A stretch of 12,614 nt of DNA. Source: Lachnospiraceae bacterium. GTDB lineage: Bacteria; Bacillota; Clostridia; Lachnospirales; Lachnospiraceae. Each line of letters opens with the position of its first letter. Within the stretch, counting starts at the first letter, position 1. Location: positions 1 through 12,614 of the forward strand of contig JAGAAH010000162.1 in assembly GCA_017615375.1 (NCBI GenBank), written 5' to 3'. The notes beneath the pieces were generated by a model that did no database searches, was not told where the DNA came from, and saw only the letters and a program-made list of their open reading frames with translations. Shown piece after piece: positions 2,768 through 11,230 of this stretch. A program made the position numbers and the translations under genes.

Positions 2768-3622
2768 CTACCTTGCCTTTCTTAAGCACGTTAAAATCGT
2801 ATTCTTTGCTTCTTCAACCGTTGTTGCATCCTCATCCACATCAAACCCTTTATTCTTAAGGTCATGCATAAGGTATGTAACCTGCGGTGCAGAAAGTCCC
2901 ATCTTCTGAAGCTCCACGTAATTCTTAAATACTTCTCGCGGAGTTCCGTCATATGCCACACGTCCGTCATCCATTACAATCAATCTGTCCACATACTTTG
3001 CCACATCCTCCATGGAATGTGAAACCAGGATAACGGTCATGTTCTGTTCTTTATGTAATCTCGATATCTCATCGAGAATTTCATCTCTTCCTTGCGGATC
3101 AAGTCCCGCAGTAGGCTCATCCAATATAAGTACTTCCGGCTTCATTGCAAGTACGCCCGCAATTGCGACTCGACGCTTTTGACCGCCGGATAATTCAAAC
3201 GGTGACTGATAATATAATTCCTTCGGAAGCTTAACATTACCCAAGGCTTCCAAGGCACGCAATCCCGCATCTTTAGAAGACAATCCCTGATTCTTCGGTC
3301 CAAAGCACACGTCTTCGAATATGGTTGTCTCGAAAAGCTGATACTCCGGATATTGGAACACAAGTCCGACCTTAGATCGAAGCTCTTTTCTCGAGAAATC
3401 CTTATCGTTGATATCGCGTCCGTTATAATAGATTTCTCCGGAAGCAGGCTTTAAAAGTCCGTTAAGGTGCTGTATAAGCGTAGACTTACCCGAACCCGTA
3501 TGTCCTATGATTCCCAAGAATTCACCGTCTTTAATTTGCAAATTGATGTCTTTTAACGCATGCTGCGAAATATTGGTTCCTTCGCTGTATACGAAATCGA
3601 CGTGATTTACGATAATTGACAT
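2768..3622 (-). CDS. ecfA2: Energy-coupling factor transporter ATP-binding protein EcfA2
   Basis: One of the two ATPases that power the shared ECF vitamin transporter. The 284-residue product has Walker A GHTGSGKST (residues 40-48), Q-loop FQYPEYQLFE (89-98, Gln90), signature LSGGQKRR (144-151), Walker B VLILDEP with catalytic Glu169, and the switch His202 in VSHSMED. The FQYPEYQLFE form of the Q-loop is characteristic of EcfA2 rather than EcfA1. The ATG (3620-3622) lies inside the end of ecfA1, a 16-bp overlap, and a GAGGAG site precedes it, so the ATPases are translated in a coupled way, consistent with their 1:1 use as a heterodimer. The C-terminal part carries the usual ECF-specific extension. 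Confidence 0.96.
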   Translation of the reverse strand: MSIIVNHVDFVYSEGTNISQHALKDINLQIKDGEFLGIIGHTGSGKSTLIQHLNGLLKPASGEIYYNGRDINDKDFSRKELRSKVGLVFQYPEYQLFETTIFEDVCFGPKNQGLSSKDAGLRALEALGNVKLPKELYYQSPFELSGGQKRRVAIAGVLAMKPEVLILDEPTAGLDPQGRDEILDEISRLHKEQNMTVILVSHSMEDVAKYVDRLIVMDDGRVAYDGTPREVFKNYVELQKMGLSAPQVTYLMHDLKNKGFDVDEDATTVEEAKNTILTCLRKAR

Positions 3623-4458
3623 AATATGTGTAAAAGCTCCTCTTCCGTAAGAACGCCGTCCGGTATATTAAGTCCGGCTTCTTTAAGCTCATGTGCCAGT
3701 AATGTAATCTGCGGAACATCTAAGTGATGCTCTTTTAATGTCTTAATATCCGAGAATATCTGTCTCGGAGTACCCTGCATCACTATCTTACCATGATCCA
3801 TAACGAATACTTTATCCGCATTAACTACTTCTTCCATATAATGCGTAATAAGAATTATGGTTATTCCTTCTTTTTTGTTTAATTCCGTAATCGTATCTAT
3901 TACCTCACGACGGCCTACAGGATCAAGCATTGCTGTAGGTTCATCCAGGATAATGCATTTAGGGCGCATCGCAATAACGCCTGCGATTGCAACGCGCTGC
4001 TTCTGTCCGCCGGATAACTTATTCGGCGAATGATTACGATACTTCTCCATATGTACCGCGGATAAAGCATTATCAACTCTCGTCCAGATTTCCGATGTAG
4101 GAATGCCGATATTCTCCGGGCCAAATCCTATATCCTCTTCAACGATTCCCGCGATTATCTGGTTATCAGGATTCTGGAACACCATTCCTGCAGCCTGTCT
4201 AATCTCCCAAAGCTTCTCTTCGTCCTTGGTATCCTTACCGTCAACCCACATGGTTCCGTCGGACGGAGACAAGATAACATTCATGTGCTTCGCAAGGGTA
4301 GACTTACCCGATCCGTTATGACCTAAGATTGCGATAAAATCGCCCTCCGCAATGTCAAGATCGACGCCGTCAAGCGCCGTCTCGATGCTGTCCACGTTAC
4401 CTTCGTCATCACGGTGTATATATTCATGTGTAAGTTTTAATGCCTTAATAATGCTCAT
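3607..4458 (-). CDS. ecfA1: Energy-coupling factor transporter ATP-binding protein EcfA1
   Basis: Second ATPase of the ECF module. From the ATG at 4456-4458 it has 283 residues, the normal length. Walker A GHNGSGKST is at 46-54, Q-loop FQNPDNQ at 94-100 (Gln95), signature LSGGQKQR at 148-155, Walker B ILDEP with Glu173, and switch His206. The reading frame stays open for 93 more codons upstream, to an ATG at 4737, but that stretch lies wholly inside the large palindrome, resembles no ABC N-terminus, and would make the protein far too long. The chosen start begins MSIIKALKLTHEY, as expected for the family, and has TTGGAGA (about 4463-4469) at good spacing. I see no convincing promoter directly in front; transcription may read through from trmL across the palindrome or start within it. 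Confidence 0.95.
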   Translation of the reverse strand: MSIIKALKLTHEYIHRDDEGNVDSIETALDGVDLDIAEGDFIAILGHNGSGKSTLAKHMNVILSPSDGTMWVDGKDTKDEEKLWEIRQAAGMVFQNPDNQIIAGIVEEDIGFGPENIGIPTSEIWTRVDNALSAVHMEKYRNHSPNKLSGGQKQRVAIAGVIAMRPKCIILDEPTAMLDPVGRREVIDTITELNKKEGITIILITHYMEEVVNADKVFVMDHGKIVMQGTPRQIFSDIKTLKEHHLDVPQITLLAHELKEAGLNIPDGVLTEEELLHILCQLS

Positions 4459-4492
4459 TCGTTTCTCCAAATTATTATCATCTGACAATAGG

Positions 4493-4857
4493 GTATATAT
4501 TTTACTCACGGGCTTATATAATATGACACTTTTACTTGGACACGCTCTCGCTAAATGGTCCCTCGTTGCGTTACATAAAGTGCTACTCGTAAACTCGTAC
4601 CACTTAAGTAACGACGGGTCCCAATTGTCCTCGTAATAAGTGCATATTATATGCGCCCTGTTTACGATAACACTATATTGGTTCATAGAACAGGCCTGAA
4701 GAATTATGCATTTATCGGACGGGTAATTTGACGCCATCGTTACTTAAGTGGTGCAAACGAAGTGCAGCAGCACTTTATGTAACGTGATGAGCGGCAACTT
4801 AGTGCAAACGTGCCCGGACGAAAATGTCATAATTTGAAGGCCGTACGTTATATATAC
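4493..4857. repeat. 365-bp imperfect palindrome filling the trmL-ecfA1 gap
   Basis: This gene-free stretch folds back on itself almost end to end around a centre near 4675. Outer tips: GTATATAT (4493-4500) with ATATATAC (4850-4857). Perfect blocks: CGTTACATAAAGTGCT (4569-4584) with its complement at 4769-4784; CCACTTAAGTAACGA (4600-4614) with its complement at 4737-4751; CCTGTT (4657-4662) with AACAGG (4689-4694). Between the tips and the first block, 45 of 63 aligned positions (4522-4584 against 4831-4769) match by hand count, and 15 of the 18 differences are transitions. The centres of the paired blocks agree within about 1.5 bp, so the arms have hardly any net indels. Its right end touches the trmL stop codon. 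It could be a foldback or MITE-like element, a long structured RNA or a decayed inverted duplication. I recognise no known family. Confidence 0.85.
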
Positions 4858-5358
4858 TTATTCAATATAATCTGCAAACTTCGTGAGGTGCCCCTCCGTG
4901 TTCATGCCGGCAAACCCTTGCTGACGCAGCGCCTCATACGCAATAACCGCAACAGAATTGGAAAGATTAAGTGACCTCTCCTGTCCCATCATAGGAATAC
5001 GAATGCACTCATCCTTATGATGCGCCAAGATAGACTCCGGAATACCCGCGCTTTCCTTACCGAACATTACATAAGCACCATCCGGAAACTCAACATCCGC
5101 ATAAATATTCTTGCCCTTAGTCGTAGCATAATACATCTTGATATTCGGATTCTTCGCCAAAAAATCCTCATAGCAATCATACTTCGTTACATCAAGACGC
5201 GGCCAGTAATCAAGACCTGCCCGCTTAACCTGCTTCTCATCTATAGAAAATCCCATCGGCTCAATCAGATGGAGTCTGCATCCCGTTGCCACGCAGGTCC
5301 TGCCGATAGCTCCCGTATTAAATGGAATCTCCGGCTCAAGTAAAACTATATTAATCAT
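4858..5358 (-). CDS. trmL: tRNA (cytidine/uridine(34)-2'-O)-methyltransferase TrmL
   Basis: SPOUT-class methyltransferase that uses S-adenosylmethionine to methylate the 2'-O of the wobble nucleotide of tRNA(Leu) isoacceptors. The 166-residue product fits the compact YibK/CspR type. Motif 1 EPEIPFNTGAIGRT is at residues 8-21, motif 2 FGKESAGIP at 99-107, and motif 3 IPMMGQERSLNLSNSVAV at 121-138. The last two form the trefoil knot that binds the cofactor. The ATG (5356-5358) overlaps the TGA of the upstream AIR-synthase-like gene in an ATGA junction, so translation is coupled. It is the last gene of the VanW operon. The stop codon (4858-4860) is immediately followed by the 365-bp palindrome. 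Confidence 0.95.
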   Translation of the reverse strand: MINIVLLEPEIPFNTGAIGRTCVATGCRLHLIEPMGFSIDEKQVKRAGLDYWPRLDVTKYDCYEDFLAKNPNIKMYYATTKGKNIYADVEFPDGAYVMFGKESAGIPESILAHHKDECIRIPMMGQERSLNLSNSVAVIAYEALRQQGFAGMNTEGHLTKFADYIE

Positions 5359-11100: not shown

Positions 11101-11230
11101 AACCATCTTTTCCCATCCGGACTATACCGTCGGTTGCGGAATTACACCGCATCGGCTCTGACTACTGGTTTCATCAGAGTTCGTGGACTGTCACCACCGG
11201 TCAGGAATCACACCTGCCCCAAAGATTACG
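11101..11230 (-). ncRNA. FMN riboswitch (RFN element)
   Basis: The minus strand carries the classic aptamer blocks in order. GGGGCAGG with CCTGACCGG comes first, then GGTGGT, then AGTCCACGA. A variable stem CTCTGA/TCAGAG follows, then GCGG/CCGC with ACCGACGGT, and finally AGTCCGGATGGG. The closing P1 helix ATCTTT (about 11226-11221) pairs with AAAGAT (about 11109-11104). The element binds FMN directly and senses riboflavin status. It is followed by an intrinsic terminator, so control is by transcription termination. It sits ahead of ribU and probably governs ribU, the flavoenzyme gene and nth together. Confidence 0.96.

Follow-up and report, generated by a model that had tools for sequence, protein, structure and literature searches.

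A palindrome of 365 bp (4493..4857) lies between a trmL-like gene and ecfA1 in the stretch of Lachnospiraceae DNA that we analysed (12,614 nucleotides, referred to below as the window), and the question that it raises is what kind of element such a structure may be. The first-pass annotation of this DNA, made from the sequence letters, had offered three possibilities: a foldback element, a very long hairpin RNA that gates transcription from trmL into ecfA1, or a new RNA family. We find that the whole palindrome is a divergent inverted pair of two modules of one kind, which are widely dispersed in the family.

The palindrome and its two modules

The palindrome is real by arm alignment, fold energy and comparison of the window with itself. 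The blocks of 16 bp (4569-4584/4769-4784) and 15 bp (4600-4614/4737-4751) and the 8-bp tips described earlier are exact. A global alignment of one arm with the other has 124 matches over 177 aligned positions; the differences are 29 transitions and 24 transversions, and a further 11 columns are gaps. Its score is 166, whereas the highest score among 1000 mononucleotide shuffles was 71. When the window was compared with itself by blastn, a match appeared at 4496-4856 (364 columns, 63.7% identity, E 7e-32). The fold energy is -139.8 kcal/mol on the + strand and -147.3 kcal/mol on the - strand (z -9.7 and -11.9), and on both strands none of 100 dinucleotide shuffles was equally good. The transitions had been reported to split evenly between G-U and A-C pairs, which holds over the whole arm (14 G-U and 15 A-C, + strand), whereas their dominance among mismatches, 15 of 18 in the outer half-arm first inspected, falls to 29 of 53 over the whole arm.

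The gene setting is compact. The trmL-like gene (4858..5358, - strand) scores 183.8 bits with TIGR00185, just under the cut-off of 190.6, and exceeds the cut-off of PF00588, and ecfA1, which encodes an ECF transporter ATPase, follows downstream (3607..4461, - strand; TIGR04520, 385.9 bits, over the cut-off), its start being placed at 4461 by comparison with six relatives. As had been remarked, the palindrome abuts the TAA stop codon of the trmL-like gene (4858-4860) exactly, and it occupies the gap from there to about 31 nt upstream of the ecfA1 start, where a ribosome-site-like stretch remains. Both reading frames stay open around it. No promoter-like site was seen around the window element and no terminator-like site inside it; a single such terminator-like site was detected beyond its limits.

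Both arms of the palindrome prove to be complete hairpin modules of one kind, which we call A, of about 130 nt, one on each strand and with the 5' ends facing. The left module (core and proximal stem, 4521..4648) lies on the - strand, that of trmL and ecfA1, and scores 130.1 bits with model R1 and 94.1 bits with model R2; the right module (4703..4832, + strand, antisense to both genes) scores 136.3 and 88.0 bits, both modules having gone into the building of the two models. A spacer of 54 bp (4649..4702) separates the two cores and holds the facing 5' arms. A 2-bp hairpin with a GNRA loop can be read from the sequence in each module, with GAGA in the left (4544..4551, - strand) and GCAA in the right (4802..4809, + strand).

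Taken alone, A folds into a long outer stem, a conserved core, an inner hairpin and the 2-bp hairpin with its GNRA loop. With its arms the module measures about 120-220 nt, R1 and R2 covering 130 and 121 positions, and the outer arms beyond the model are mostly 20-125 bp. Outside genome G043, described below, the arms differ widely among copies of the same genome, yet mostly pair over about 20-125 bp; in a few copies no arm was detected beside the core. Among 214 copies, 208 loops of this hairpin were found, of which 207 have a purine at position 3; position 2 is variable. These are the two positions that are independent of a loop search that favoured G...A loops. No Rfam family overlapped an A module in the window at the gathering score, in six loci at E ≤ 5 or in nine loci at E ≤ 1, and a known riboswitch or other RNA was rejected on this ground. 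An FMN riboswitch is present elsewhere in the window (11101-11230, - strand; 100.2 bits, gathering score 66.2).

Upstream of the modules there is a weakly conserved block, which in G031 mostly resembles, by eye, the reversed partner module. Several modules (L072, L075, L079, L111, L122, L123 and others) carry upstream a TTGCGAAAC box with at most one mismatch, sometimes mirrored downstream; the box also occurs away from modules. At locus L068 (1593-1802, - strand) a 69-codon reading frame lies between two facing modules, one of which supplies its stop codon.

In seven A copies, aligned blind to structure and examined with RNAalifold, compensatory changes were found at 21 of 36 pairs. After realignment of the core none of 500 shuffles scored as high, and slid partners were 26-44% paired, compared with 91.8%. 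For 123 copies, in an alignment fitted to the structure, the covariation score is 0.667, against 0.173 after shuffling and 0.067-0.114 with slid partners. Compensatory changes, a check named beforehand, are therefore present in both alignments. The core and proximal stem have about two G-U for each A-C (68:38 in alignment A3 and 82:34 in A5, both belonging to the series A3-A6 that was fitted to a model, by which paired columns are favoured). In 30 copies from G022 there are 9 G-U and 14 A-C, and three modelled pairs fail to form. The core has a frequent U-G pair, and G-U pairs are few overall. For the distal arms we counted 120 G-U and 105 A-C (p 0.35, omitting mismatches that adjoin gaps or other mismatches), and 164:182 in another count, whereas the SRP RNA of 29 relatives, used as a control with a different aligner and after dropping 22 poorly paired columns, gave 75 G-U and 11 A-C. 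Pairing in the A core thus looks more RNA-like, and the distal arms show no RNA-strand preference. In 190 copies there is no promoter-like enrichment at a fixed upstream distance, and the T content is flat after the 3' end of A, so that no pattern of hairpin plus T-run (intrinsic terminator) is seen; a dedicated promoter was discarded for these copies and for the window element alike.

Distribution, pairing and sites of module A

Dispersed copies, which had been named in advance as a check, proved to be many, both in the genome of the window and in related genomes. A DNA search of the window's own genome gave a third, partial match on another contig, and among 97 genomes there were matches, most of them covering a single arm, in three: this one and two congeners. 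A modules standing alone, apart from the pair, were found on G000:C80 and C224, and in G002 and G003. With R1, A was found in 15 of 60 relatives, all of the window's family, and in none of 24 genomes from other families of the same order. With R2, built from 123 copies, it was found in 47 of 100 Lachnospiraceae genera (35 of 80 among good-quality genomes) and in seven genomes of a 291-genome sample of the class, all of the same family; among the 10 same-family genomes listed in that sample, seven carry A and three do not. Both models were scored partly on their own training sequences, and the surveys of more than 40 genomes used stricter filters. Six genomes hold at least 50, 51, 45, 17, 15 and 12 copies, which are lower bounds, as only the best candidates in each genome were scored (150 for these six, 35 for the 100 genera and 12 for the 291 genomes). 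In G022, for which 45 copies were counted with R1, a first look in the survey of 100 genera gave 1063 candidates, of which 35 were scored; this genome may hold far more copies than that count.

A pattern scan returned at least 119 stretches, and the 80 loci listed gave 89 R1 matches. Coprococcus catus VPIC661, Butyrivibrio sp. M55 and Falcatimonas sp. MSJ-15 are among the carriers by both pattern and model. Matching records that name a family or genus mostly fit Lachnospiraceae, and the family name used here is taken from them. Five metagenome-assembled contigs with A are labelled Gastranaerophilales, Muribaculaceae, Muribaculum or Bacteroides (L181, L212, L221, L233 and L252), and are probably mis-binned Lachnospiraceae contigs. 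Carriage by phages or plasmids was also considered and set aside, as A gave no match in IMG/VR by one pattern and none in plasmids or phages by blastn.

The divergent arrangement of the window recurs across the family. Neighbouring A modules at most 500 bp apart are divergent in 20 of 20 cases, and at most 1 kb apart in 21 of 22, the exception being a tandem pair at 998 bp. These counts are drawn from alignments A3, A4 and A5 (96, 30 and 89 matches), and become 19 and 20 independent cases when the orthologous pair loci L184 and L203 are taken as one; no overlap above 800 bp was found between the 80 named loci and those fetched from G006, G014, G022 and G031, or the other loci of L046-L125. Neighbours more than 1 kb apart comprise six divergent, four tandem and one convergent pair. 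In G182 one convergent pair at 796 bp was seen by eye among the matches listed. The partner is the closest or second-closest copy in three of 11 pairs (the window, L056 and L094) and is neither in the other eight. Since partners are usually not nearest copies, the divergent pair is an arrangement and not just a local duplication. The members of the window pair are 67.2% alike, compared with a mean of 55.0% to two other copies from the same genome, so that an inverted duplication of a single module may be the origin of this particular pair. Relative to co-directional neighbouring genes, A lies in sense and antisense about equally often (31 '++' and 27 '--' of 96, as judged with a home-made gene caller); this placement, together with dispersed and often single copies, argues against an orientation-dependent leader or attenuator.

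At the trmL-ecfA1 site, six relatives of the genus have no A module in the 160 nt upstream of ecfA1, and absence from this site in relatives, another check set beforehand, is thus what we observe. The stop and start codons overlap in G003, the gaps are short in G001 and G004-G006, and in G002 a stretch of about 70 nt resembles one arm by eye; the G002 and G003 loci (L127 and L128) gave no match to the models. A second presence/absence site lies beside a gene that we take to be rapZ-like. Of three sister species compared here, G122 has 183 nt with a module, which is absent without trace from the contiguous G275 sequence (flanks 93-95% identical), and G316 has a shorter gap and no module. Part of the 183 nt of G122 resembles G316, which makes a deletion in G275 as likely as an insertion in G122. 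No target-site duplication was found at this site; at the window site there is an imperfect GAATRAGYAT repeat, seen by eye. In G003 a module (L014) stands beside genes that are presumably ylxM-like and phosphopantetheinyl transferase-like, and the corresponding stretch of G002 (L147, G002:C58) looks, by eye, like a degenerate remnant.

Four orthologous copies could be compared between the sister species G122 and G275. Identity between the cores is 94.9-99.2%. In two of these cases the neighbouring non-coding bins drop as low as 16-68%, gaps being counted as differences, and in the remaining two conservation extends over the entire region. As far as these alignments go, the conservation of the cores suggests constraint rather than a neutral parasite.

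A young family, hairpin B and the competing explanations

In G043, 18 of 20 fetched copies, picked for their top scores, are near-identical (0-4 differences over 119 positions) and have the same arms. Ten of the 20 carry the 5' start motif of a longer element, which measures 619-637 nt in seven of them and is a composite, of about 620 nt, of a further hairpin, B, and A; L367, L376 and L379 are shortened, and in three other copies (L365, L372 and L380) an A-like module in reverse orientation stands upstream instead. Inspected by eye, both ends are AAACTG...CAGTTT-like (terminal inverted repeats, in G043 only), and TA is present at most of the ends. The longest stop-free runs of the seven full elements are 85-113 codons, with no evident gene. 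In this family (L362-L381) the end of a long reading frame on the far strand is no more than 1 nt from the 3' terminus in 11 of 18 cases, and on the 5' side six of 10 such frames stop exactly where the element begins. These counts are without a chance control, and a frame here means whichever open one of 60 codons or more was longest among those that end at most 400 nt away, not a proven gene. The abutment of the palindrome on the trmL stop codon resembles these frames ending at element ends. We also considered that arms are copied from host flanks, as hinted by the frame entering an arm at L068, and rejected this for G043, where near-identical copies have the same arms although they stand at different loci.

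Hairpin B lies upstream of A on the same strand and has its own conserved core with two CATCC loops. Nine B sequences, among them six close G043 relatives, show compensatory changes at 19 of 31 pairs. With a model of B, R3, three loci showed B preceding A on its strand: L306, and L185 and L213, which had themselves gone into R3. L095 gave a weak match of this kind (E 0.03), and in L249 the distance between B and A is about 2.5 kb; over 174 sources B was found in these five loci and L362, and not in the window. B followed by A therefore occurs in a few genera and is unproven elsewhere.

No mobilising gene could be linked to A. The Y1 transposase family PF01797 is absent from all seven genomes of the genus (three of them less than 80% complete), including G006 with its at least 50 A copies. 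It is present in five of the 15 genomes searched, and 24 Y1 loci from elsewhere were all without an A module in their vicinity. On these grounds a Y1 transposase was rejected as the partner in this genus.

The explanation that we favour, and hold to be probable, takes the palindrome for two end modules, arranged divergently, from a family of non-autonomous mobile elements of REPIN/MITE-like kind in Lachnospiraceae. We infer mobility from the dispersal of the modules, the young copies and the presence/absence sites; against it stand the outer arms outside G043, which are unrelated in most copies of a genome and so unusual for a copied element, the apparent constraint on orthologous cores, and the negative results for a mobilising gene, for a target-site duplication at the rapZ-like site and for phage or plasmid carriage. 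The original foldback proposal is right in part, the palindrome being an inverted pair of a dispersed module and not one unit. In the mechanism that we propose, the conserved A core, with its GNRA mini-hairpin, would be the recognised part, and the outer stem could vary freely while pairing holds. A trans-acting protein would recognise the core in its folded single-stranded form, whether RNA or DNA, and would mobilise units that have a module at each end (A facing A, or B then A), the surviving copies presumably being those that sit where they are harmless, often at stop codons. More tentatively, and at somewhat less than an even chance, these repeats may form a new class of mobile structured element, with large RNA-type folds as ends, A-facing-A or B-then-A composites, spread by a factor that recognises the folded core in trans, and outer stems evolving freely under pairing alone. 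If so, the A/B element would rank among the main structured repeats dispersed in Lachnospiraceae genomes.

A narrower form of the favoured explanation places the action in DNA, the hairpin working as folded single-stranded DNA or a cruciform and its arms being kept complementary by palindrome-correcting replication. The ends of IS200/IS605 elements and REP sequences are hairpins that act in this manner, and the distal arms without RNA-strand bias, the few G-U pairs overall and the inverted doublets, as in REPINs, agree with it; the GNRA rule and the frequent core U-G pair, however, are RNA habits, and the genus lacks a Y1 transposase, so that we see this form as possible but on the doubtful side. 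The modules might instead be dispersed non-coding RNA genes, transcribed from their own or a neighbouring promoter and acting as RNA, with mobility incidental or ancient. Core covariation, the near-invariant GNRA loops, the G-U excess of the core and proximal stem, and the two ortholog cases in which the core is conserved relative to flanking DNA would fit, whereas the missing promoter-like signal, the flat T content on the 3' side, the near-identical G043 copies and the distal arms, so different from the SRP control, do not, and we regard this account as unlikely. The new RNA family suggested at the outset is likewise right in part: the covarying core, which has no Rfam match, looks more RNA-like, and the distal arms do not discriminate. 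That the palindrome is one very long hairpin RNA gating transcription from trmL into ecfA1 is very improbable, even with a global fold that is stable on either strand and a position inside a co-directional gene pair; its arms are complete modules that occur alone, in other contexts and in both orientations, it contains no terminator-like site, and the six relatives have no module there, and the proposal was therefore dropped. Hardly any weight remains for a decayed local inverted duplication of no wider meaning, which the higher likeness within the window pair would favour; divergent pairing is family-wide, mostly with partners that are not the nearest copies, and as a full account it is contradicted by dispersed copies across genera.

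Significance and likeness to known repeats

Lachnospiraceae are common in guts and rumens. A covarying structure without an Rfam match that is present in close to half of their sampled genera, with about 50 counted copies in the richest genomes, amounts to a considerable portion of these genomes that lacks annotation. With the A repeat one could ask directly whether mobile repeats of bacteria can be recognised in the form of folded RNA, and how long stems keep pairing while their sequence changes completely. In the open-licence literature we found no title or abstract describing it, which is weak evidence of absence.

MITEs, ERIC and RUP are dispersed palindromic intergenic repeats without an evident gene. 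A resembles them in its dispersal, in the lack of an evident gene and, in G043, in the shared short termini and near-identical copies at different loci, and differs in that the terminal modules are large covarying folds and that arm sequence is rarely shared outside G043. The bcr1 repeats of the Bacillus cereus group, which belongs to a different bacterial class, are mobile intergenic repeats with a conserved RNA-like structure, and are like A by description only. HEARO and IS605-orfB RNAs are structured RNAs tied to mobile elements with many copies per genome; in the loci scanned (the window and 15 others), no Rfam family overlapped A. Stem-loop repeat families that are intergenic and have a common predicted structure have been described in 40 genomes (PMC2267715), and A, an intergenic repeat with a common predicted structure, is likened to them by description. 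REP units of 20-40 bp (PMC3733652) are far from the roughly 120-220 nt of A with its RNA-type conserved core and, unlike REPs and REPINs with a RAYT, A is carried by a genus that has no Y1 transposase gene. REPINs are presented (PMC3116915) as non-autonomous intergenic palindromic units that occur in many copies as singlets and inverted doublets, and A likewise occurs in many copies, singly and as inverted doublets (19 independent loci within 500 bp).
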